Part shown: piece by piece, positions 41,424 through 54,971 of the stretch | How the letters are laid out: the number at the start of each line of letters is the position of its first letter | How positions within the stretch are numbered: the stretch's first letter is position 1 | Origin: Spirochaetota bacterium | GTDB taxonomy: Bacteria; Spirochaetota; UBA4802; UBA5550 | Length of the DNA: 56,341 bases | NCBI GenBank assembly: GCA_017999915.1 | Contig: JAGNKX010000025.1 | Span: 1 to 56,341, forward strand | Reading direction: 5' to 3' | The notes under the pieces: generated by a model | The model's database searches: none | Told to the model about the DNA's origin: nothing | Seen by the model: the letters and a program-made list of their open reading frames with translations, nothing else | Program-made: the position numbers and the translations under genes

Positions 41424-42767
41424 ATGAAAAAAGGAAGTAAAATCAGGACGGCGCTTATCGCCGCCGCGATCATCCTTGCCTCTTCAACCGTTTTTCCTTT
41501 TTCAGATCAGACCACCACGGAGAGGATATTGAAGGAGAACAAGCGCTTCGTTGAGTTCATCAATGTCTGCGTTACCAATTTCGCCGAGGATAAAAAAGAA
41601 GACTTCCGGAAGGTCTATGAAAAGCATTTCAACGCGGATGTGGCCTATCTACAGTCGGATTACCGGCGCTCCTACAAGCGCGTGTACGCGTCCCAGGGCG
41701 AGATGGAGAAGATATACCGTGAAATGGTGAAGAACAGGTACCTTGAGGATTCGAAGATGATCCTCGACCGGTTCGCTCCCGGCATCATCCGTTCGAAGAA
41801 CGCCAGGGCCCGCCTCTATCTGACGCTGGGGTACCGCGACAGGACCGTAAGCTGGACACATTACACCGTGGGAGACGCCTCGAATCCCAAGCTCTACTCG
41901 TATAAGCTGTACAAATACGTCGATGCCATCAAGATGGCGCGCCGCGCCAAGCGCTTCGCGTTCCTTGCCCTGTTCGAGAGCCAGACCAGGGAAACGAAGA
42001 GGAAGATATACAACCAGATCTGCAAGTCCGAGCGCGACGCGAAGAACAAGTACATGAACAGGTTCGTGGACCTGAACGACAAGGATTATATCAACGAGCT
42101 TGAAAAGGCCTATGGCGATTCAAAGCAGGCTGAAGAAGCGTCAAAGGAGGGCCGGGCGCCGGAGGGGCAGCCGGCGAAAGAAGGCCAGCCGGCCAAAGAG
42201 GGTGAGCCGGCGACGGACGGCGGCAAGGCGGCCTTTGAAGCAGCCGTCCAGGGCTACGAGGCGAAAGTGGTGAAGCGGGTCCGGTTCCGCAACGAGACCA
42301 AGACCGCGCGGTATCTCCTGGACGGGGAATTCGACCGGGCCGAGGATGTTATGCGCGAATATATAGACGACTTCAACTTCAAGCTCATCGTGGCGACCTT
42401 TGAGGTGCTGTCCGGGTCCGCCACGGCGGAAAAAGAAGGTACGGCCGGCAAGGAGGCGCCGGCTGACAACAAGGCCCCGGTCGAAAAAACCGATTACAAC
42501 CAGTATAAAGTGCACCTGATGGATAACTACGGCCGGTTCTCAAAGCAGTCGATGATAGACGGTTACCTCGATAGCCTGAAAGTCGAGGATAATGTGGAGG
42601 AAAACAAGGCGGAGGAGAAGGGCGCCGAGGGGCCCGGCGTTGATGAGACCCATAAGGATGATAAGACGGTCGCGCCGGAGAAAAAAGAGGATAAAACCGT
42701 AAGCGGCGACAAAGAGAAAAAGGACGAGAAGAAAGAAGAGAAGAAAGAGGAAAAAAAGATTCAATAA
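41424..42767 (+). CDS. Exported helical protein with acidic/basic low-complexity tail
   Basis: A 447-residue exported protein: signal peptide at 1-27, then a mostly helical region of about 200 residues with YRRSYKRVYASQGEMEKIYREMVKNRYLEDSKMI and ARLYLTLGYRDRTVSWTHYTVGDASNPKLYSYKLYKYVDA, then EGQPAKEGQPAKEGEPA repeats and a Lys/Glu tail. No family recognised. Its own terminator follows at 42811. Confidence 0.72.
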   Translation: MKKGSKIRTALIAAAIILASSTVFPFSDQTTTERILKENKRFVEFINVCVTNFAEDKKEDFRKVYEKHFNADVAYLQSDYRRSYKRVYASQGEMEKIYREMVKNRYLEDSKMILDRFAPGIIRSKNARARLYLTLGYRDRTVSWTHYTVGDASNPKLYSYKLYKYVDAIKMARRAKRFAFLALFESQTRETKRKIYNQICKSERDAKNKYMNRFVDLNDKDYINELEKAYGDSKQAEEASKEGRAPEGQPAKEGQPAKEGEPATDGGKAAFEAAVQGYEAKVVKRVRFRNETKTARYLLDGEFDRAEDVMREYIDDFNFKLIVATFEVLSGSATAEKEGTAGKEAPADNKAPVEKTDYNQYKVHLMDNYGRFSKQSMIDGYLDSLKVEDNVEENKAEEKGAEGPGVDETHKDDKTVAPEKKEDKTVSGDKEKKDEKKEEKKEEKKIQ

Positions 42768-42810
42768 CACGCATATTCACACCAAGCGCAATAATCACCA
42801 CGCGATCCCG

Positions 42811-42840
42811 ACATTCCCGCCCAGGCGGGAATGTTTTTTT
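42811..42840 (+). terminator. Rho-independent terminator
   Basis: CATTCCCGCC-CAG-GCGGGAATG followed by seven T residues; it ends the exported-protein gene and separates it from the cyclase operon. Confidence 0.92.
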
Positions 42841-42963
42841 GTGGCCTGATTTGTCTTTGAATCGCGGGATGTTCCAAAAAATTGTTGCATTTATACGGGA
42901 GATGAATGATTTTGATGGAGCATGGATATTACCCAAGCCTGTGCGCTGGAAGGTACCGGAATT

Positions 42964-43326
42964 ATGAAAAAAATGTTATTGTCGGTGGTCATGCTCTTCA
43001 TGGGCGTCGCCGTTGTCATCGGCCTCCCCTCCTGCAGGAAAAACGACCAGAAAGGACTGCTGGGCATAGTGGTCCCCGTGGGCCAGGAAAAGGTGCGGAA
43101 AAACGCGCCCTATGTCATTACCGGCGTCTACGAGGATAGTCCGGCCTTCCGGGCAGGACTGCGCCCGGATGACCGCATCGTGCAGATCAACGGGGCGGAA
43201 TTGGAAGGCCTGGAATACGATCATATTTACAATAGCATGCTCCGCGGCCCCTCGGGCACAAAGGTCACCATCGTCGTTGAGAGGAAGGGAGAGACGATGG
43301 TCTTTGACGTGGTGCGGGGGGAGTGA
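42964..43326 (+). CDS. PDZ-domain lipoprotein
   Basis: A 120-residue exported protein with a lipoprotein signal ending LPSC (about Cys24) and a single PDZ domain: KGLLGIVVPVGQEK, VYEDSPAFRAGLRPDDRIVQINGAELEGLEYDHI, RGPSGTKVTIVVERKGETMVFDVV. PDZ domains bind exposed C-termini; alone and membrane-tethered it could recruit partners to the periplasmic face of the cyclase downstream. ATG at 42964 has GGAAGG upstream. Confidence 0.85.
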   Translation: MKKMLLSVVMLFMGVAVVIGLPSCRKNDQKGLLGIVVPVGQEKVRKNAPYVITGVYEDSPAFRAGLRPDDRIVQINGAELEGLEYDHIYNSMLRGPSGTKVTIVVERKGETMVFDVVRGE

Positions 43327-43329
43327 CCG

Positions 43330-43425
43330 GTGGCCAGGAAGATATTCTTCGTCGTCGTCCTTTCCTTCTCCGCGATCTTTTCACTGTTTATTTTGCTGGA
43401 TATCCTGTACTGGCTCTTCAACTGA
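43330..43425 (+). CDS. 31-residue single-helix membrane peptide
   Basis: GTG-started frame MARKIFFVVVLSFSAIFSLFILLDILYWLFN, almost entirely one hydrophobic helix. GGGGGAG lies six bases upstream, the best binding site in this operon, and the start follows the PDZ gene by three bases. No homologue is recognised. Position and shape suggest a small regulatory subunit of the adjacent membrane cyclase, as many bacterial microproteins tune membrane enzymes (inference). Confidence 0.6.
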   Translation: MARKIFFVVVLSFSAIFSLFILLDILYWLFN

Positions 43426-43494
43426 TTTCAACGTGTTCACTGCCTGTGCCCCTGCGCCACGGAGTTTGCAATCGACAAGGATAGAAACCGCCTT

Positions 43495-45378
43495 ATGGAC
43501 AACGATGCCGATACCTTCGCCGGGTTTAAAGAGTTATTCTCTGATTTAAAGATCCGCACCAAGCTGATATCGATAATTTCGCTGATACTTATCGTCTCCC
43601 TTGCCGGGATGATACTTCTTGCCACCTACTTTTTCAAATCAGACAACGAGATACGGGCCAACGAGCTCAATCACAAGATCGCCGATATTACGTCGCAGAA
43701 AATGCAGAATGACTGCGCCGCCCTGGTTGAAAAACTCAACCTCATGGGAAACACCATGATCCAGCAGATACCGCAGAAGGCCCTTTTCACCGACCTTTTT
43801 TTCGCCAATGACCGTAACATGATCTACGTCGGCATCGGCACGCGTGCGGGTGGCGGCATCCGCTTCGAAAGGTCCGTCAACAGCAGGGCTTTTTTCGATG
43901 AGAACCGCCTGACCCTCCAGGCCGTGGACGCCATCAGCGAAACCTATGCCCCGGCGTTTCTCGGCGCCTTCGGCGGCGAGGCCGTCATACAGAACGTTTC
44001 CAAGAGCTTCAATACCCCGGCACTGGCCATGGCCCTGCCGTTCCAGAAGAACGCCGACGGCTCCGTGGCGTCCATCCTGGTCTGCTACCTGAAGCTTGAC
44101 CGGTTCCTCCAGGCCTTCAGGACCAGGGACATCTTCGAGACCTTCATGGTGAGCGCCAGGGGAGACGTCATCGCCCATCCCGACAGCAGGATCGTCCTCT
44201 CACACGGAAATTTCATCAGGCTGCCCATCGTCGAGGAGATGCTGAAGAGCAGGCTCGACAACGGCCAGAAGCGCTACCGCGACGACGACGGGGAGTACCG
44301 CCTGGGCTCCTTCAAGAAGATCGGTTTCGGCGGACTCGGCGTCATCGCCACCGTGAGCGAGGAGAAGGCCTTCAGGGCGGTCTATCAGATCCAGCGCCGC
44401 AATATACTGATCATGATCATCGTCCTCAACCTCGGCATCCTCATCGTCTACTTTTTCAGCAAGACCCTGACCACGCCCATTACCCGACTCGTCGGGGCCA
44501 CCAAGGAGATCGAGAAGGGAAATTTCAGGGTTGACATCGTGCCGACGTCGGGCGACGAGATAGGGGAGCTGACACGGTCCTTTGTGTCCATGGGGCGCGG
44601 CCTCGAGGAGCGCGAAACGCTGAAGGAGACCTTCGGAAAGTTCGTCAGCAAGGACATCGCTGAGCTGGTGCTGAGCGGCAAGGTCAAGCTCGGCGGGGAG
44701 CGCAAGACCGCGACCGTATTCTTCTCGGACATCCGCGAATTCACCTCCATCTCCGAGAAGCTCGAGCCGGAAGAGGTGGTCGAGTTCCTGAACCAGTACA
44801 TGACCAGGATGGTCAATTGCGTCGAGGTCACCAACGGCGTGGTGGACAAGTTTATCGGCGACGCCATCATGGCCGTGTGGGGGGCCCCGGTTTCCTACGG
44901 GAACGACGTGGAGAACGCCATCAACGGCGCCCTCATGATGCGCAACGAGCTGATGGGCTTCAACAAGGGGCGCGGCGGCCCCAAGAAGCCGGTCATACGG
45001 ATCGGCTGCGGCATCAACACCGGGCCGGTCCTCGCGGGCCAGATCGGCTCGGAGGAGCGGATGGAGTACACGGTCATCGGGGACACGGTCAACCTGGCCT
45101 CCCGCATCGAGCAGCTGAACAAGCCCTTCGGCACGGACATCCTCATATCGCAGGAGACCTGCGCCCAGATACGGCACAAGTTCCTCGTCGAGCCGATGCA
45201 GAAAATACGCGTCAAGGGAAAGGCCGAGCCCCAGCAGATCTACGCGGTCCTCGGCAGGAGGGACGATCCCGAAGCGCCGAAAAACATCGACGGGCTGCGG
45301 CGCCTCCTCGGCATCGACATGAAGGGGAAGCCGGAGTCTCCCCCGGCCGATGAAGTGAAGTATGAAATACTCAAGTAA
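43495..45378 (+). CDS. Membrane class III adenylate/guanylate cyclase with HAMP
   Basis: A 627-residue membrane receptor enzyme. TM1 (about 24-47), a periplasmic sensor region of ~250 residues resembling Cache-type domains, TM2 (about 302-323), HAMP (about 323-378) and a class III cyclase domain (about 395-575). FSDIREFTS and GDAIMAVWGAP carry the two metal-binding aspartates, and RIGCGINTGPVLAGQIGS and VIGDTVNLASRIEQLNK complete the active site, so cAMP or cGMP synthesis is expected. The C-terminus (about 576-627) is a short unknown tail. The 1218-residue FecR-type gene overlaps its end by 17 bases. Confidence 0.93.
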   Translation: MDNDADTFAGFKELFSDLKIRTKLISIISLILIVSLAGMILLATYFFKSDNEIRANELNHKIADITSQKMQNDCAALVEKLNLMGNTMIQQIPQKALFTDLFFANDRNMIYVGIGTRAGGGIRFERSVNSRAFFDENRLTLQAVDAISETYAPAFLGAFGGEAVIQNVSKSFNTPALAMALPFQKNADGSVASILVCYLKLDRFLQAFRTRDIFETFMVSARGDVIAHPDSRIVLSHGNFIRLPIVEEMLKSRLDNGQKRYRDDDGEYRLGSFKKIGFGGLGVIATVSEEKAFRAVYQIQRRNILIMIIVLNLGILIVYFFSKTLTTPITRLVGATKEIEKGNFRVDIVPTSGDEIGELTRSFVSMGRGLEERETLKETFGKFVSKDIAELVLSGKVKLGGERKTATVFFSDIREFTSISEKLEPEEVVEFLNQYMTRMVNCVEVTNGVVDKFIGDAIMAVWGAPVSYGNDVENAINGALMMRNELMGFNKGRGGPKKPVIRIGCGINTGPVLAGQIGSEERMEYTVIGDTVNLASRIEQLNKPFGTDILISQETCAQIRHKFLVEPMQKIRVKGKAEPQQIYAVLGRRDDPEAPKNIDGLRRLLGIDMKGKPESPPADEVKYEILK

Positions 45379-48300
45379 CATCAGGGCCGATCTGATCGCG
45401 GTCGGCGCCAGCGTCCTGATCATCGCCGGGTGCTCGGCGCTGCTCTACGCGGATTACGCGCGGAAGGTGGACGCGGGCGGCGCGAAGCGGATCGGCACCC
45501 TAACCTACAAGCAAGAGGTCGTCCAGCGCAAGTACGGCTCCCAGGTCATATGGGAGGATCTCGCCCGGAACGTTGCCGTCTACGACAACGACTCGATACG
45601 GACGGCGGAGCTCTCGGAGGCCGTCGTCAGGCTCAATGACGGTACCACGATCGCCATCGACGAGAACAGCCTGATACTCCTGGCGATGAGCGGGGAGGGC
45701 GTGAATATCGACTTTTCCCACGGATCGATAGCGGCCAATCGAGAGGCGGCCGGCGATGAGGCCGCCTCAAAAATAAGCATCACGTCAAAGGACGCCGTTG
45801 TTTCCATGAACAGCGGCGGCGTCAGGCTGTCCGGGTCCGGGGAAAAGGGATTGGATGTGACGGTCACCGAGGGGAGCGCCGCGGTCAGATCCGGCAGCGA
45901 AGAAAAAACAATCAAAAAGGATGAGCGGGCCACTGTTACCAAGGATGCCGGGACGAAGGTAGTCAAGCTGAATCTCAAGATCCTGTCGCCGGCCCATAAC
46001 GGCATCATCGTGACCGCCGCCCCGATAGCGCCGGTCACGTTCACCTGGGCTGACGCGCGGGGCTATGACGGGGGGATCGTCCTGGAGATCGCGCGGGACA
46101 GCGGTTTTTCCAGGGGCGCCGTTGCCAGGGCCGCAGCCGGGAACAGCCTGACGGAAAGACTCGGCGAGGGGAGCTTTTACTGGCGGATCCGGGGGCGAAA
46201 CGCCGCAATCGGCGCCGAGGAATACAGCGAAGTAAGGAAGATCGGCATCCTTCGCGACATGCCAACGGGGCTTCTGTATCCCGCGCATAACGAAGTCATA
46301 TCATACAGCGTAAAGCCTCCCATCATCAACTTCCGGTGGCGGGAAAACAGGGTGGCGACCGATTACACGGTGGAGATATCCCGGAGCCCGGCCTTTTCCG
46401 CCATCGAGCGGTCCCTCCCGACGACGCTCCTGGATATCTCGGTGGACGGCCTCGGGGCCGGGACCTATTACTGGCGTGTCAGGTCGAATAACAGCGGCAT
46501 CGTGTCTTATAAAGGGGTGAGCGCGGTCTCATCATTCAAAATCGAACGCATGGCGGCGTTGACCGCCCCTGTCCTCATAGCGCCTCCCGATGGCAGGCGA
46601 TTGAGCTCATCCATGACCGGCAAGGCCGGGAAAGTCCTTTTCAGCTGGAGTGCCGACAGCCAGGTCGGCCTGTATGATTTCATGGTGGGTACCGACAGGG
46701 AATTCCGGAACATCGTAATACGGGAAAAAGTGAAGGGGAACGTGTTCGCCCTTCGCGGACGCCTGGAGCCGAAGCGGTATTACTGGCGGGTCGCAACCGA
46801 TGCCGAAACCGGCGGGCTTTTTTCCGCCACCAATGCTCTCCTGGTGGTGCCCGGGGGCACGGTGATCCCCGGCCTACCCAGGGTCATCCGCGCCGGCGGC
46901 TCCGGAGGTGAAGAGAAACGCGCGGATATACGGTTCCCCTGCGCGGCAAAGGATTTCACGGGGGTCAGGACAATCGAGCTGGCCCGGGACAGGGGATTCC
47001 TTGACGGCGCCGGATCGGTGGCCACCTCGGAAAATTTTGCGGTCATGGAGGGCGTTGCGGCAGGCGCGTACTTCTGGCGGGTGCGCCTCTTTGACGAAGA
47101 ACGCAGTCAGATCGGGGAAGGGGAGACGCGCAGTATCTTCGTGAATGTAAACGGCCAAATCGTCGGATCCGCCGAAGAGATCGCGCCGGCGCCGGGTGTG
47201 CCCGCCGTCACCGGAGAGGAAGCGGCGCCGGTTGAAGGGACGGCGGAGGCGCCGGGGCGGAAACAGGCCGGGATGCGGGAAGATCTTCCTGAGAAAAAAC
47301 CCATGGAGGAAGCTGTAAATATAAAACAGGCTGACCAGGGGCGGACGCGCGGTGAAGAGCTGGCCAGGAAGAGACAGGCGGCGCTGGAAAAGAGAAGAAA
47401 GGAAGCCCTTGCCGGGAAGCGGGGGGATGATCAGGCACGGAAAAAGCGCGAGGAGATGGCCGCGAAAAGAGGGGAAGATATAGCCCGGAAACGGCGGGAG
47501 TACCTGGCGAAGAACAATCAGGATAAACCGGCGGTGAAAAAGCGCGAGGATGCGGCTCAGCATCAGCGCGAAGACCTGGCGAAGAAGAAGCGGGAAGAAC
47601 TGGCGCAGAAGAAACGCGATGACGCGGCCCGCCGCCGGCGTGAGGAGCTCCCGAAGAAGAAACAGGATGAGGTCGCCCGTACGAAGCAGGAGACGCCGGG
47701 GAAGAAAAAGCGGGATGAGCCGGCAGTAATAAAGCGCGAGGACATGGCCCGGCGACGGCAGGAGGAGCCGGCGAAGAAAAAACAGGAAGGGCCGTCAAAA
47801 AAAGAGACCCCCGGGCAAGAGAAGCCCTCGCTGGCCATTACCTCGGGGACGCTGGGAAGCGCCATCTATGTCAATTCAAAGCTGGTCGGCTACGGCACGG
47901 CTCGGTTGAATCCCGTTCCCGGCAAGAAGCTCGTCATCACCATCGTGGCGGACGGATATGGCGAATACAAGCAGTCACTGACCATGGGGAGCGGAGAAAA
48001 GAAAAATATCAACGCCCGCCTTGTCCCGGGCGCGGCGGATTTCAAGGAGAAGCGCCCGGGGAGGAAGCTGCGCTGGAGGACCAATCTCGCGTCAACGGTC
48101 ATGTCGCGGCCGGTGCACCGGGGCAACATGATCGTCGCGACCACCAGGAACGGCTATCTGCTGGGGATGAACCTGAACGGCGGGCAGCTCTGGCGCACTG
48201 CCCTGGGGAGCGTTGCCCGGTCGACCCCGGCGGCGGATGATTCGGCGGTATACGTCGTCACCGTGAACGGGTTCCTCTTTTCCATCGCCCTGAAGAGCGG

Positions 48301-49018
48301 CGCCGTCAATTGGAAGAAGAAGATCGAAGGGCCCCTCCTGTACGGCTCCGAGCCGGTGGTTGACGGGGGGAGGGTCTTTATCGCCACGAGCTATGGCGTG
48401 GTCCAGGCCTTTTCCCGGGGCGGCGGCGAGCTGTGGCGCCGGAACCTGGAGGAAGGCGTTTTCAGCTCCATGACCTGCGACGGCGGCGTCCTGTACGTGG
48501 GAACGGCGCGATCGAACATATACGCCATCAACGCAGGCGACGGCAGCGTCAGGTGGACCTTCGCCACGGACGGCAGGATATTCTCCGCGTCTCCCAGGGC
48601 GCACCGTGGCGTCCTCTATGCCGGGTGCGACAGCGGCGCCTTCTACGCCATCAACCGCGACGGCTCCCTCAGGTGGGAATTCAGGGCGAAAAAGGGGATC
48701 CTGTCGGCCCCGGCCCTGGCCGGCGATACGGTCTGCTTCGGCTCCGAAGACGGCACGATCTATGCCCTTGGGGCGGATGATGGCGGAAAGCTGTGGGAAT
48801 TCAGCACCAGGGGCCCCATCATCTCCGGGCCCGATGTTTCCCGCGACAGCATTCTCGTGCCCTGCGGCAACGCCGTATTTTCAATCGACGTGAAAACCGG
48901 GGAGCTGAACTGGCGGGAAGGATTCCCCTCCGGCGTTAATACGCCCGTCACCGTGGTGGGAGATACCGCCTTCGTGGGACTCAACAACGGGGACTTCATC
49001 TCGATCGCTTCGTTTTAA
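45362..49018 (+). CDS. FecR - FN3-like - PEGA - PQQ-propeller envelope protein
   Basis: A 1218-residue exported protein. The N-terminus carries a membrane or lipoprotein segment (VLIIAGCSALL). Then come a FecR-type domain (about 35-205), four FN3-like repeats each closing with an aromatic YWRV/YWRI (about 205-600), a low-complexity stalk of K/R/E repeats (about 660-820), a PEGA domain (about 822-895) and a PQQ-type eight-blade propeller (about 900-1218) with repeated LYVG and GSVRW motifs. Such proteins are surface scaffolds; the overlap with the cyclase gene suggests a shared signalling function. Start overlaps the cyclase stop and has GAAGTGAAG upstream. Confidence 0.88.
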   Translation: MKYSSNIRADLIAVGASVLIIAGCSALLYADYARKVDAGGAKRIGTLTYKQEVVQRKYGSQVIWEDLARNVAVYDNDSIRTAELSEAVVRLNDGTTIAIDENSLILLAMSGEGVNIDFSHGSIAANREAAGDEAASKISITSKDAVVSMNSGGVRLSGSGEKGLDVTVTEGSAAVRSGSEEKTIKKDERATVTKDAGTKVVKLNLKILSPAHNGIIVTAAPIAPVTFTWADARGYDGGIVLEIARDSGFSRGAVARAAAGNSLTERLGEGSFYWRIRGRNAAIGAEEYSEVRKIGILRDMPTGLLYPAHNEVISYSVKPPIINFRWRENRVATDYTVEISRSPAFSAIERSLPTTLLDISVDGLGAGTYYWRVRSNNSGIVSYKGVSAVSSFKIERMAALTAPVLIAPPDGRRLSSSMTGKAGKVLFSWSADSQVGLYDFMVGTDREFRNIVIREKVKGNVFALRGRLEPKRYYWRVATDAETGGLFSATNALLVVPGGTVIPGLPRVIRAGGSGGEEKRADIRFPCAAKDFTGVRTIELARDRGFLDGAGSVATSENFAVMEGVAAGAYFWRVRLFDEERSQIGEGETRSIFVNVNGQIVGSAEEIAPAPGVPAVTGEEAAPVEGTAEAPGRKQAGMREDLPEKKPMEEAVNIKQADQGRTRGEELARKRQAALEKRRKEALAGKRGDDQARKKREEMAAKRGEDIARKRREYLAKNNQDKPAVKKREDAAQHQREDLAKKKREELAQKKRDDAARRRREELPKKKQDEVARTKQETPGKKKRDEPAVIKREDMARRRQEEPAKKKQEGPSKKETPGQEKPSLAITSGTLGSAIYVNSKLVGYGTARLNPVPGKKLVITIVADGYGEYKQSLTMGSGEKKNINARLVPGAADFKEKRPGRKLRWRTNLASTVMSRPVHRGNMIVATTRNGYLLGMNLNGGQLWRTALGSVARSTPAADDSAVYVVTVNGFLFSIALKSGAVNWKKKIEGPLLYGSEPVVDGGRVFIATSYGVVQAFSRGGGELWRRNLEEGVFSSMTCDGGVLYVGTARSNIYAINAGDGSVRWTFATDGRIFSASPRAHRGVLYAGCDSGAFYAINRDGSLRWEFRAKKGILSAPALAGDTVCFGSEDGTIYALGADDGGKLWEFSTRGPIISGPDVSRDSILVPCGNAVFSIDVKTGELNWREGFPSGVNTPVTVVGDTAFVGLNNGDFISIASF

Positions 49019-49046: not shown

Positions 49047-49628
49047 CTAATAGAATTTTTCCTTGACGTTGTACTCCCACAGCTCGACGAGCTTGTCGAA
49101 TTCCTTGTCGTGGGGCTGGTCCCTGTAGGTCATGTTCCGGCGTTTTATCAGGTAGGCGACGGTGGAGTCTTCCAGCAGGAAGGGCTCCTTGAGCTGGTTC
49201 AGCTTGATGATGAGGTAATTCAGGTTATACGTCTGAAAATCCCCGATAAGCTTCGAGGCCACGGTGGGCTCGTACTTCATCAGGAGCTCCGTGAAATAGA
49301 GGGCCATCCGCCAGGAGTCGGTGCTGCCGGCCACCCCGGACTTGAAGTGCATGGACAGCTTTTCGAAAAGGTCCATGTTCTGGTAATAGGAGTCGTATAT
49401 CGCCTTGATCAGCTCGGGGAACTCGTTCTGAACCTCCATCAGGTCGATGGGCTCGTCCTTGGTTGTGAAGTGCTCGAAGATTTCCCTGCTTTTATCCGTT
49501 GTGGGGATCACGGGGATCAGCTCCACAAAAAGGTCCTTGATGACAGTGCGGACTTTGCCCGCCTTTTTCAGGTATACCTCGATCTCGACGGGCTCCACAT
49601 AGTAGTGCTTGTTTTTGTCGACTATCAT
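49047..49628 (-). CDS. Hypothetical protein overlapping the LysM gene
   Basis: A 193-residue soluble protein with no recognised family. It starts VDKNKHYYVEPVEIEVYLKKAGKVRTVIKDLFVELIP and contains a helical middle (VGFPELIKAIYDSYYQNMDLFEKL-type segment). Its ATG overlaps the end of the upstream LysM gene by four bases (ATGA), so it is translated from the same transcript and probably acts with it. Confidence 0.72.
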   Translation of the reverse strand: MIVDKNKHYYVEPVEIEVYLKKAGKVRTVIKDLFVELIPVIPTTDKSREIFEHFTTKDEPIDLMEVQNEFPELIKAIYDSYYQNMDLFEKLSMHFKSGVAGSTDSWRMALYFTELLMKYEPTVASKLIGDFQTYNLNYLIIKLNQLKEPFLLEDSTVAYLIKRRNMTYRDQPHDKEFDKLVELWEYNVKEKFY

Positions 49629-52168
49629 CGCGCCGGCACCTGGCGCGCGGCCGATGACAGCGATTCTTCGGCCTTTTTCAGGGCCTCACGCTGTTCCTTT
49701 GAATATGCGAACTGCTTCATCTGCCCGATAAGACGGGCCTTGTTCTTCGCGTCGGCGGCATTATACTGCTGCGAAAGCTCGTTGAACCTGATCGTGGATT
49801 CAATGAGCTTGTTCTTGGAAAGGTTCCAGAGGGTGTCCCCCCTGCTCACTACCACGGGCTGGCTGTCCAGCATGATGAACACGTTTTCCGGGTATATCCA
49901 GTCAGGGTTTCGCTCCCTCAGGGTCGTTTCGGCGATTTTATGATAGCCGTTTCTCACGGCAACCTCGTTGGCGTAATGGTATATATCGTTGTCCCTGATC
50001 TTTATGTTCAGCTGGAGCCCGAGCTGACGGTACCGCGTATCGATATCTCGGCTCTCGATCACGGGCCCCTTGGCCTTGATGGTGACGACTCGTTTTTTTG
50101 CGCGGGCGGATCCGTCAGTTCCCTCCGTCGCCGGATGGCGCAGTAAAAGGACCGCGGCCGCAATGAGAAGGATAAGGCCGAGGGGCAGCGCGATTTTCAC
50201 GGCAGCCGGAAGGTTTTTTATTTTTTTGATTATGGAAGACGCCATGGCGGGGGCTGATGTTCCCGCGCCTTCCATCCCCTTGTCGGCCGCGGCGTCGGCG
50301 TCAAGCCGGGATCCGGCCGCTCCGCTCCGCGGTCCCTTTACGGCGGCGGCGGCGCCGGTCCCGGTATCATCTTCGTCCGATGACAATACGGCCGATGAGG
50401 CGATGGATCGCGACCAGGCGTTATCAAGGCTCAGCGATTCGTCGCGGTACTGGCTCTTGCGCTCGCCGATGGCGTCTTTGAGCTTGCCGATCTCCGGCAT
50501 GTTCTTTTCATGGTAGCGCTCCGATCGCGTATATATGTCGATCAGGCACCGGAGACGCTCGCGGTCCGCGATGATCCGGTCATAATACTCCCCCATGCCG
50601 GGGTTGCCGGGCCGTACGGAAGAGTCGCCGTCCGGGCCGATGGTGTCGAAGAGCCGAAGGCCGGCATCGGCCTTAGAATCAATAACGAAGGGAAAGACGG
50701 CGCCGTTGAACAGGGCCAGGACCACGCTGTGCCGTGACGGATCCTGGACAGCGGAGGACCGGCCCACGGCAAGGGAGAGGGTCCCGGCAATGCCCCTGAG
50801 CTGTGATGAAAGCTTGCGGTCGCCGGTATTGTACAGGTGTACCCGCACGAGTGAAAGCAGGTTGAAGAGCTCCCGCCTCCGTTCCGGGGTCATGGCTTCG
50901 GCTGAGGGGGAGCCCGTTTCCGACGCCAGCTCTTCCGGCGAACCGGTGATCCGGGCAATGATGTCGTCGCCGAGACCCGACAAGCGGGTGAGATCCTCGA
51001 TGCCGGTGAAGGCCCTGAACTCGTACTGGATTCCCCGGGAGAGGACGATCTTGTCTTCGCCGCCGAGTCTGGAGATATGCTTGTTGCCGTCGTCGATAAT
51101 AACTACGGGAATGTCCGTCGACCTGAGGAGCATCACAATGTCCTCATAGGCCGTGTAGGAGATGATGAAGAGATCGGGCTTTTCTTTGATGATGTCGCGA
51201 ACTCCGGCCGAACCCTTGATGTAGGCGGCGGTGAGGTCTTTTCCGCCGGACCCGCCGCCGGAGAAGGTTATTTTCATGTTAAAGGTGCCGGGATAATTCC
51301 GGAACTCGATCCCCGTGTCGCCCCGGTACGCGAGGCCGCTGAAATCGTCCTTCCTGATGACGGCGTGGGAAAAGAGACGCTTCACCAGATCGATATCGGT
51401 GCTGTTGGCGAAGATGGTTATCTTTCTCCCCGTGTTGTTCAGCCACTTGAAAAGCTTCGAAATGTTGGTCAGGTTGAGTGACGGATGGAGGATCGCCTGC
51501 ACCTTGCCCGGATCGATGCCGAGAAGCGAAAAAGGCCCCAGGTAGTCGGCCGGGAAAAGGTAGGAATAGAAATGGCCGCTGTTGTAAAAGAAGGGATTAT
51601 GGCCTATCACGGCGAGACCCGAGCCGTTGTAGCGCGCGGTGCCCCGGTTGCTTTCCGAAAGGAGGTCATGGAATTTCTGCCAGCTTATGGGCTTTTCTAT
51701 GATCTTGTTCAGGTCGAAGATGATGTTCTTGTTCAGGAGCACCTTGAAGTTGCCGTCCCGGTAGAAGACGCCGATGAACTGGTCCTTGTGGGAAATATTT
51801 TTCTCCTTTGAGAGCTCCGGCAGGTCCTTCTCGATATCGACCACGGAGGCGTTGGTAAGATCAAGGCCGAAAATCTTCTGGTAGTCGAGGTATTTCCGCA
51901 CCACGGCCTTGCTGCCGATATAGCGGTTTTCCGGGAGGTGGCGCACGTCGATGTTGAACTGCTCATGGGCCGGGTTGCCGATAAGGCTGTCGGTGATAAT
52001 GATATTCTCGATCAGTGGGATCAGCTCAACGGGCATATCGTTCCAGTTGCCGATGCGGATGAACGGCTTAATGTCATCCGTTGTTTCCCCGGTAAAAATT
52101 ATATAGCATTCAGGATCGACGATAAAGAGCCTGTCGCTGTCAGATTTGATTATGTCTTTGATCTCCAT
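49625..52168 (-). CDS. Membrane protein with LysM domain
   Basis: An 847-residue protein. The long N-terminal part (about 1-380) is cytoplasmic and not recognised, though some segments resemble metallo-beta-lactamase strands without the metal ligands. A proline/alanine-rich linker and a single membrane helix (about 656-675, ALPLGLILLIAAAVLLL) follow, and the C-terminus is a LysM-like region (VVVSRGDTLWNLSKNKLIESTIRFNELSQQY) that should bind peptidoglycan outside. ATG at 52168 is preferred over 52183. The small gene behind it is co-transcribed. Confidence 0.75.
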   Translation of the reverse strand: MEIKDIIKSDSDRLFIVDPECYIIFTGETTDDIKPFIRIGNWNDMPVELIPLIENIIITDSLIGNPAHEQFNIDVRHLPENRYIGSKAVVRKYLDYQKIFGLDLTNASVVDIEKDLPELSKEKNISHKDQFIGVFYRDGNFKVLLNKNIIFDLNKIIEKPISWQKFHDLLSESNRGTARYNGSGLAVIGHNPFFYNSGHFYSYLFPADYLGPFSLLGIDPGKVQAILHPSLNLTNISKLFKWLNNTGRKITIFANSTDIDLVKRLFSHAVIRKDDFSGLAYRGDTGIEFRNYPGTFNMKITFSGGGSGGKDLTAAYIKGSAGVRDIIKEKPDLFIISYTAYEDIVMLLRSTDIPVVIIDDGNKHISRLGGEDKIVLSRGIQYEFRAFTGIEDLTRLSGLGDDIIARITGSPEELASETGSPSAEAMTPERRRELFNLLSLVRVHLYNTGDRKLSSQLRGIAGTLSLAVGRSSAVQDPSRHSVVLALFNGAVFPFVIDSKADAGLRLFDTIGPDGDSSVRPGNPGMGEYYDRIIADRERLRCLIDIYTRSERYHEKNMPEIGKLKDAIGERKSQYRDESLSLDNAWSRSIASSAVLSSDEDDTGTGAAAAVKGPRSGAAGSRLDADAAADKGMEGAGTSAPAMASSIIKKIKNLPAAVKIALPLGLILLIAAAVLLLRHPATEGTDGSARAKKRVVTIKAKGPVIESRDIDTRYRQLGLQLNIKIRDNDIYHYANEVAVRNGYHKIAETTLRERNPDWIYPENVFIMLDSQPVVVSRGDTLWNLSKNKLIESTIRFNELSQQYNAADAKNKARLIGQMKQFAYSKEQREALKKAEESLSSAARQVPAR

Positions 52169-52529
52169 ATCCACCCAAACCATATAGAGGGTTTGATAAC
52201 CGCCCTGTTGTTACGCTTTTTTGATTATTTTTAACAAAAAACACATTTATAATGATTAGGAAAGGTTGGCAATTACATTTTGCTCTGACTCGTTGGGGGC
52301 TCTGACCCTGTGTGTATCCGCCGCCTGCCCCATATTTTTTTATACAAATAAATATAATTGCATAATATTTTTTAGTAAAATGGCGATCATAAAAGGGGGA
52401 TACCTTGACAGGGGTCCCGGCTGTATAGTACTTTACAATTATTCGGAGAATGTGCCGCATCTCCTTGCCCTTTAAAGCGGAAGATGTACGAATGCACCGA
52501 AAACTATCAAGCATAGTAATTATTTTAAA
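52169..52529. other. Intergenic stretch between divergent genes
   Basis: No gene seen. It should hold the promoters of the LysM gene (leftward) and the BNR-repeat gene (rightward); the latter start lacks a clear ribosome binding site. Confidence 0.4.
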
Positions 52530-54971
52530 ATGAGAAACCTGGGATCCTACATATTGAATCTTTATTTTCGCATTGCCTTTGTCAGGCAATGCCTCTGGGC
52601 GATTTTTCTCTTCGCTGTTTTCTCCATCGCCGCCGCCCTTGTTTTCCAGAGCAGCAAAGTTTTGACGAACCCGGCAGGATGGGAGAAAAGCTTCCAGGTA
52701 TCTTCATTTAACATCGTGGCCCGGGATATCACCGTCGCTTCCAGGGGGAATATCATCGCCGCCGTGTACGAGGGAAGGGCCGGCGGGGCCCAGGGCATCT
52801 ACGCGACCCTTTCATTCGACGGGGGCGTGACCTTCCTGCCTTCCCTGAGGGTCGCCGGCGTAACGTCAAAAACATCGATGAACCCCCACGCTGCCATATC
52901 CCCGGCGGGTCACCTTACGGTCATGTGGCACGGCTATATCGACACCGAGTCGACGAACAGGATCTTTTTCTCGACGTCGAAGGATTACGGCGCCACCTGG
53001 AGCGAGCCGAAAAAGCTTTCCCTGGGAAAGGAAACCGAAATGCTGCCCCGCGTCTATTATGACGACCGGAACCGCCTCCACCTTTTCTACCATGGCAGCG
53101 TGGCTGACAACATAAACCTGTTCCACGCGATTAGCGACGACGGGGAACAGTTCAAGACCACGGGATCGCTGATCCGCCTGACGAGCAGCATGCGGGGCGC
53201 CTTTTTCCCGTCGATCCAGATTTCGGGAAAATACTTTTTCATGGTGTGGCAGGGGAAGGAGGAGGATTTTTCCGATGAGCTCTTTTTCATGAAGTCCGCC
53301 GATTACGGGCGGACCTGGAGCATCAAGAAGCAGATCACCGAGAGCATAGGCAACAACGACGCGCCGTCCCTGATTCTCCATGAGAACGATCTCTACGTGG
53401 CGTACCAGAACAACGATGAAAAAAACTGGGCCATCAAGATGAAGAAGGGCGTCGACGGCGGACGGTCGTGGAAAGATGCGCCGCTGGCGGCATCCTCCAC
53501 CATGGCAAACTGTTATTCCCCGGCCATCGGGCTTTCCGGCAACGACATCATGGTGCTCTGGTATGACACCCGCGAGGGGAAGGCGCGGATCTATTCCCGC
53601 AAGTATTCGGTCAGGGAAAGGAATTTCCTCCCCGAAGCCGAGGTGTCCGAGGCCCGGTACGAGTCGCGGAACCCGGTCGTGGTGTCCCTCGGGAAGCGCC
53701 TCGTGGTCTTCTGGGAAGAGCGGAACGTCATCATGGCCAAGCAGACCGACGTGTATGCCGAAGCCCCGGTCGTTTTTTCCGAAACGAATCCCGAGGGGAT
53801 ATGGTCACGGCTGCCCTATATCGTGATGCAGTGGAGACCTCCCCGGGACGAATCCGGCATAGCGGGATACGCGGCCCTTCGCAACAACCTCCCGGACTTC
53901 AATCCCACGGTCGTGAACATGAAGCCGAATGTCACCCAGGAGAAAATCACGGATAATATCACCGACGGCATATCCTATTATCATATCCGCGCAGTCGACG
54001 GGGCGGGCAATTTCAGCCGCACCATCCATTACAAGCTGCAGCTGGCGGTCAACCCGCTCCCGGGGCCCGTCATCGTTTCCCCGACGCATCCCCAGGGCAA
54101 GCCGTCCCCGTCTATGGCGCCGGCCTTTTCCTGGGCCATCGATGAGCCGGAGCGCATCAAGGGATTCGTGTACAGCCTGTCACGGGACGCGATCAAGATG
54201 CCGGACCAGTTCACCACGGAGCTGAAGACGGCGTTCAGCGACATCGAGGATGGGAATTACTTTTTCACCGTGGCGGCCGTGGACAAGACCAACCAGATCA
54301 GCAGGGTGTCAACGTACGATTTCATCATCGGTCCCCTCGACCGGGCCGTCGATCCCGATTATTTCAACCGGATCGCCGAGGAAGAGAAGAAATTCCAGAA
54401 ATACTACCAGGAGCATTTCAAGTTCTATCGGGAATACGGGACTCCGGTTCCAGTCATCGCGAGGACGCCGGGCGTGATGATCCAGTTCCCCTTCGACGTC
54501 AGGAGGGTTTTTGACGGCAATTCGTTCAAGGCGATCATAGTGCCCGCCAATATCCGCCCTGAATCGATCGTCGGGTATTCGGTATATATCAATGATGACA
54601 ACATCCAGCCGGCGGACCGCGTCAACCACAAGGGTTCGATTATCGAGGTGAAGGGCCTGAAAAGCGGCGACTACTATATCGGCGTGAAGTGCAAGTATGC
54701 CGTGGGGGCCAGGGGCTCGGGAGCATACGCCTGGACAAAGCCCTACGTCGCGAAGGTTTCCATACAGCTGCCGGCGGAGCGCTCGCCGGTCGTATATTAC
54801 GCGAAGAATGTGATGGATAAGTTCCCGCGGCGCTTCAGCATTATTACCGTCACCTTCGTGGGGCTGGGGCTCGTAATAACGACGATGGGGTACGGCACGA
54901 GGATATCGTTTTACCTGCAGCTCTTTCTCTTCAGGCTGAAAGAGCGATACCGGAGGATGGCGAAAAAGTGA
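52530..54971 (+). CDS. BNR-repeat (sialidase-like) membrane protein
   Basis: An 813-residue protein with an N-terminal membrane anchor (about 17-42) and a C-terminal membrane helix (about 770-800). Between them are at least four BNR/Asp-box repeats (SFDGGVTF, SKDYGATWSEP, SADYGRTWSIK, VDGGRSWKDA) of the sialidase fold, then FN3-like segments (about 430-640). The active-site arginine triad of true sialidases cannot be confirmed, so carbohydrate binding or recognition may be all it does. No ribosome binding site is obvious before the ATG, which lies in an AT-rich leader. Confidence 0.78.
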   Translation: MRNLGSYILNLYFRIAFVRQCLWAIFLFAVFSIAAALVFQSSKVLTNPAGWEKSFQVSSFNIVARDITVASRGNIIAAVYEGRAGGAQGIYATLSFDGGVTFLPSLRVAGVTSKTSMNPHAAISPAGHLTVMWHGYIDTESTNRIFFSTSKDYGATWSEPKKLSLGKETEMLPRVYYDDRNRLHLFYHGSVADNINLFHAISDDGEQFKTTGSLIRLTSSMRGAFFPSIQISGKYFFMVWQGKEEDFSDELFFMKSADYGRTWSIKKQITESIGNNDAPSLILHENDLYVAYQNNDEKNWAIKMKKGVDGGRSWKDAPLAASSTMANCYSPAIGLSGNDIMVLWYDTREGKARIYSRKYSVRERNFLPEAEVSEARYESRNPVVVSLGKRLVVFWEERNVIMAKQTDVYAEAPVVFSETNPEGIWSRLPYIVMQWRPPRDESGIAGYAALRNNLPDFNPTVVNMKPNVTQEKITDNITDGISYYHIRAVDGAGNFSRTIHYKLQLAVNPLPGPVIVSPTHPQGKPSPSMAPAFSWAIDEPERIKGFVYSLSRDAIKMPDQFTTELKTAFSDIEDGNYFFTVAAVDKTNQISRVSTYDFIIGPLDRAVDPDYFNRIAEEEKKFQKYYQEHFKFYREYGTPVPVIARTPGVMIQFPFDVRRVFDGNSFKAIIVPANIRPESIVGYSVYINDDNIQPADRVNHKGSIIEVKGLKSGDYYIGVKCKYAVGARGSGAYAWTKPYVAKVSIQLPAERSPVVYYAKNVMDKFPRRFSIITVTFVGLGLVITTMGYGTRISFYLQLFLFRLKERYRRMAKK

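Follow-up and report, generated by a model that had tools for sequence, protein, structure and literature searches.

The DNA analyzed here, hereafter termed the window, is a stretch of 56,341 nucleotides from a Spirochaetota bacterium. Its forward strand carries four genes at 42964–49018, encoding a PDZ lipoprotein, a single-pass membrane microprotein, a receptor adenylyl cyclase and a large FecR-domain protein (Table 1). An earlier note, made from the sequence alone, had described these genes, and Pfam assigned the corresponding domains (PF17820, PF00211, HAMP, and the FecR, PEGA and propeller families). The strong terminator that it had placed ahead of them was recovered as a terminator-like hairpin at 42810–42835. 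Its description of three tight junctions holds for two, since the microprotein starts 3 nt past the PDZ stop codon and the cyclase and FecR genes overlap by 17 nt, whereas the cyclase starts 69 nt past the microprotein stop.

Table 1. Genes, domains and sequence elements at the locus (window coordinates).
Feature	Position	Strand	Evidence or remarks
OmpL37-like gene	41424..42767	+	NF047447, 151.4 bits (cut-off 150); usual neighbour of the PDZ and microprotein genes
Terminator-like hairpin between the OmpL37-like and PDZ genes	42810..42835	+	11-bp stem followed by a T run
Promoter-like element AAAAAATTGTTGCAWTTAT upstream of PDZ	42876..42894	+	1 match in the window, 0.01 expected
PDZ lipoprotein	42964..43326	+	PF17820, 49 bits; lipobox LPSC identified by eye
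Single-TM microprotein, 31 aa	43330..43425	+	GTG start; motif LDILYW
Receptor adenylyl cyclase, 627 aa	43495..45378	+	TM, periplasmic Cache-like sensor, TM, HAMP, class III catalytic domain
Cyclase/FecR gene overlap, 17 nt	45362..45378	+	Read from the sequence
FecR-FN3-PEGA-propeller protein, 1218 aa	45362..49018	+	N-terminal membrane anchor, periplasmic body; PF04773, PF08308 and PF13360 above cut-off
FecR domain	45590..45880	+	PF04773
PEGA domain after Lys/Arg-rich linker	47828..48028	+	PF08308
BamB-like beta-propeller	48044..49015	+	PF13360, 168 bits

The catalytic domain of the cyclase was identified with PF00211 (95.9 bits, cut-off 21.9, Pfam scan), together with a HAMP domain above its cut-off (PF00672, 45 bits). 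Residues D412, D456, K452, T526, N533 and R537, characteristic of class III enzymes, are invariant in the alignments. We take Asp 412 and Asp 456 to be the metal-binding aspartates, Lys452 and Thr526 to be the positions selecting ATP (adenine) in bacterial cyclases, and Asn533 and Arg537 to be the transition-state residues. All known class III catalytic residues are present, and the predicted product is cAMP. The sensor is weak by sequence, scoring 26.5 bits against the dCache_1 profile (cut-off 45). Its structural model is confident (pLDDT about 85–90) and displays a long helix followed by two successive strand-rich units. Foldseek matches comprised chemoreceptors and cyclases, including one to the ligand-binding domain of Mlp24, and matches in the PDB were weak and to chemoreceptor sensors. 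Based on this fold and the sub-threshold profile, the sensor was tentatively assigned as Cache-like. The Pfam scan found no CHASE2 domain (PF05226) in the window cyclase and located one in three other cyclases of the same genome.

A model covering residues 1–608 of the FecR protein comprises a TM helix (residues 9–38), a beta FecR domain and four FN3/Ig-like domains, beyond which follow a Lys/Arg-rich linker, a PEGA domain and a BamB-like propeller. Fold searches with this model returned only generic FN3/Ig chains, and the propeller scored 143 bits against the BamB NCBIfam equivalog, not reaching its cut-off of 285. Many FecR-FN3 homologues stop past the FN3-like part, at about 700 aa, and the propeller is limited to some lineages. 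The linker (window 47280–47800, about residues 640–815), which makes the window protein longer than its orthologues, is weakly TolA-like (NCBIfam, 19 bits, below cut-off).

Where the cyclase and FecR genes overlap, the FecR ATG sits within the cyclase codons TAT-GAA, inside those for the C-terminal KYEI and behind a GAAGTGAAG stretch. Accordingly, GAAGTGAARTATGARAT encodes the residues EVKYEI while also supplying a ribosome-binding-like stretch and the FecR start. Nearly every cyclase homologue in the order ends in KYEI, and across Spirochaetota, 45 of 63 cyclase genes have TATGAR at their 3' end. We attribute the conservation of KYEI to this dual coding, in which the same DNA specifies the end of the cyclase and the start of FecR, and the arrangement supports a predicted translational coupling of the two genes. 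Binding of the PDZ domain to the conserved cyclase tail was also considered and was ruled out, because the PDZ lipoprotein lies outside and the tail inside, and also because dual coding explains KYEI.

To count the pairing, each locus was scored once under a fixed rule; the component sets, taken from relatives and from named genome contigs, overlap one another (28/28, 47/47 and 14/14). A cyclase with the same sensor family lies directly upstream on the same strand in 64/64 FecR-FN3 proteins, and the commonest overlap at these loci is 17 or 20 nt. In the reverse count, a FecR gene was found at most 2.5 kb downstream in 63 of 65 sensor matches from 45 genomes; both exceptions are at contig ends, and in each case a different contig of that genome has a FecR gene at its end. 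Of the 13 PF00211 proteins encoded in the genome of the window, three carry this sensor; the gene of each overlaps a FecR-FN3 gene downstream, and two of these pairs are without PDZ. Members of one family in the order (G025, G029, G034, G037 and G041) have neither the sensor nor a real FecR-FN3 match. FecR-FN3 profile matches occur in 150 of 296 Spirochaetota genomes, the weakest of which may be other FecR proteins. Distances among cyclases and among FecR proteins are correlated (r 0.76, at most 0.29 in permutations), a value that reflects plain shared ancestry too. Judged from sequence and gene order, the cyclase–FecR pair is old, strict and conserved throughout Spirochaetota. The partnership that had been proposed from the overlap in the window is therefore strongly supported, with the overlap itself recurring across the phylum.

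The first two genes follow a different pattern. Across the order, 30 genomes encode a PDZ orthologue no longer than about 200 aa. In 25 of them, OmpL37 is no more than about 600 nt away; one orthologue stands at the start of a contig, and four, from one family, sit elsewhere. Only three of the 30 adjoin a cyclase. Homologues of the microprotein, which matched no family in the Pfam scan, are encoded directly past PDZ in 13 other genomes; they share the motif LDI[LIV][YF]W and retain D24, I25 and W28 (D-I-x-x-W invariant). In most genomes, no cyclase accompanies PDZ and microprotein. Several genera keep the AAAAAATTGTTGCAWTTAT element upstream of PDZ whether or not the cyclase is present; it precedes PDZ in G001 and G005 and, with mismatches, in G004, G023 and G027.

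The slot past the microprotein is variously filled. In the window, G001 and G005 it is taken by the cyclase pair, and in G008, G011 and G016 by a FecR-PEGA-propeller lipoprotein; it is empty in G018, in G009 and in two genomes of the same genus, G003 and G004. In G002, G007 and G015, the cyclase pair occupies the same locus with no PDZ orthologue. The locus is flanked by d49047 and d49625, which are without a Pfam family, and d52530, which has BNR repeats (window 49047–52183 and 52530–54971). Because these genes keep the same order in many relatives, the frame of the locus is conserved while the content of the slot varies. The lipoproteins found in the slot possess a FecR domain of their own; an origin of the window protein's propeller by fusion with such a lipoprotein was set aside, the tree giving no resolution.

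Given the association of PDZ with OmpL37 and the empty slot in two same-genus relatives, the four-gene order is, among the genomes compared, local to three species. The PDZ lipoprotein, the microprotein and OmpL37 form a separate, older unit that stands beside the cyclase pair in a few species; the OmpL37-like gene of the window, just above the cut-off of its family (NF047447), is a member of this neighbouring unit and not of the cyclase pair. The earlier note, which had read the four genes as one possible unit, was correct about the cyclase and FecR genes but not about the PDZ and microprotein genes. The scattering in relatives that it had named as counter-evidence is seen for PDZ and the peptide, whereas the cyclase–FecR pair stays together. 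A strikingly composed gene cluster can thus be two independent adjoining units. The comparison also exposes a conserved 31-aa membrane microprotein of a kind easily missed by annotation.

The pair extends to Treponema pallidum. Genome G096 (1.14 Mb, one contig) encodes a ferritin-like protein identical at 140/140 residues to structure 2fjc, the antigen TpF1 of T. pallidum. Its single PF00211 protein is a cyclase whose gene lies immediately upstream of a FecR gene and overlaps it. The cyclase–FecR pairs therefore include the only class III cyclase of T. pallidum. Positions published for TP0484 and TP0486 (PMC2408589), which are offset by about 1.6–1.7 kb, suggest that the two genes are TP0484 and TP0485. 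A likely partner can thereby be assigned to this sole class III cyclase; in the open-access literature, we found no paper linking it to a FecR partner.

FecR proteins beside membrane receptors are a recurring theme, since such neighbourhoods have been published for other phyla (PMC9239204, PMC5192318), and the earlier statement that no system of this composition is described was too strong. In Campylobacterota, a CHASE2 adenylate cyclase clusters with a FecR-domain envelope protein (PMC9239204). As in the spirochaetal pair, a class III cyclase with an extracellular sensor has a FecR-domain envelope protein nearby; however, the sensor is CHASE2 rather than Cache-like, the clusters also carry a phosphodiesterase and a TPR protein, and the passage that describes them reports no fixed overlap. 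The BiofilmReg operon of Burkholderia combines a LysM-FecR protein with a CHASE2 histidine kinase (PMC5192318). It shares the placement of a FecR-domain periplasmic protein beside a membrane receptor with an extracellular sensor, but differs in its histidine kinase output and LysM domain, in place of which the spirochaetal pair has a cyclase and FN3, PEGA and propeller modules. Outside CHASE2 clusters, we found no FecR protein with a class III cyclase in the open-access literature. As far as that literature shows, the novelty lies in the Cache-cyclase version of the spirochaetes, in how strict its pairing is and in its extension to T. pallidum. In the genome of the window, a small FecR protein, an alginate-export-like barrel protein and a CHASE2 cyclase also occur together (L047, 1777–7432), a group reminiscent of the published CHASE2–FecR clusters.

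Because the cyclase gene is almost always followed by an overlapping FecR gene, the two products probably act as one receptor. The core would be a two-gene module in which an adenylyl cyclase sits in the inner membrane and exposes a Cache-like sensor to the periplasm, and a FecR-FN3 protein, co-translated and membrane-anchored, extends into the periplasm. Strict pairing, gene overlap, conserved catalytic residues and domain layout are the observations behind this module, from which we infer a physical interaction, a direction of control and a cAMP product. The FecR protein would bind the cyclase sensor or TM region and report the state of the envelope, in this lineage also through the distal PEGA domain and beta-propeller, and would gate the HAMP and catalytic dimer and thereby control cAMP. 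We consider it probable that FecR-FN3 serves in this way as a periplasmic cyclase partner conveying envelope state to cAMP, although the pairing may stem from a shared function and not from contact. The pair offers a concrete, phylum-wide candidate for how spirochaetes couple envelope state to cAMP. A stronger claim would make FecR-FN3 proteins obligate subunits of heteromeric receptor adenylyl cyclases in the whole phylum, the only class III cyclase of T. pallidum among them; in our judgement it is evenly balanced. If true, a FecR module would control a second-messenger enzyme and not a sigma factor.

Other readings give the FecR protein a different role. It could stand on the output side of the pathway, as a scaffold or cell-wall protein that is co-translated with the cyclase solely for co-localization and regulates nothing; domains such as FN3, PEGA and the propeller typically serve structural or binding roles, and co-translation is compatible with simple co-assembly. 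One-to-one pairing with a sensory enzyme across the phylum is more readily explained by regulation, and we regard the output role as unlikely. It is very improbable that the protein acts as an anti-sigma regulator of the FecI/FecR type, with the cyclase a mere neighbour. It does contain a FecR domain on a single-pass membrane protein, as do E. coli FecR of the FecI-FecR-FecA system and Leptospira LIC_12756, and FecR-like anti-sigma proteins have been reported in Leptospira (PMC12155086). However, only a few residues precede its membrane helix, which starts at residue 9, the Pfam scan matched no anti-sigma domain, and the upstream partner at every counted locus is a cyclase, not an ECF sigma factor; a role as anti-sigma factor was rejected on these grounds.

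The idea that all four products form one envelope-to-cAMP pathway draws on three species of the genus that keep the order. A single transcript may still cover the four genes in these species, and neither the window nor G001 shows a clear terminator separating peptide from cyclase. In G005, however, a weak terminator-like hairpin follows the peptide, and the relatives with OmpL37-PDZ-peptide and an empty slot (G003, G004), or with the pair and no PDZ orthologue, separate the two halves; a single pathway therefore seems quite improbable. Within the two-gene module favoured here, the cyclases themselves vary. Those paired with FecR proteins of about 710 aa, as at L043 (6587–9259) and similar loci, mostly have an N-terminal extension of some 200–350 aa with no assigned function, which is absent where the partner is a propeller-bearing FecR protein.
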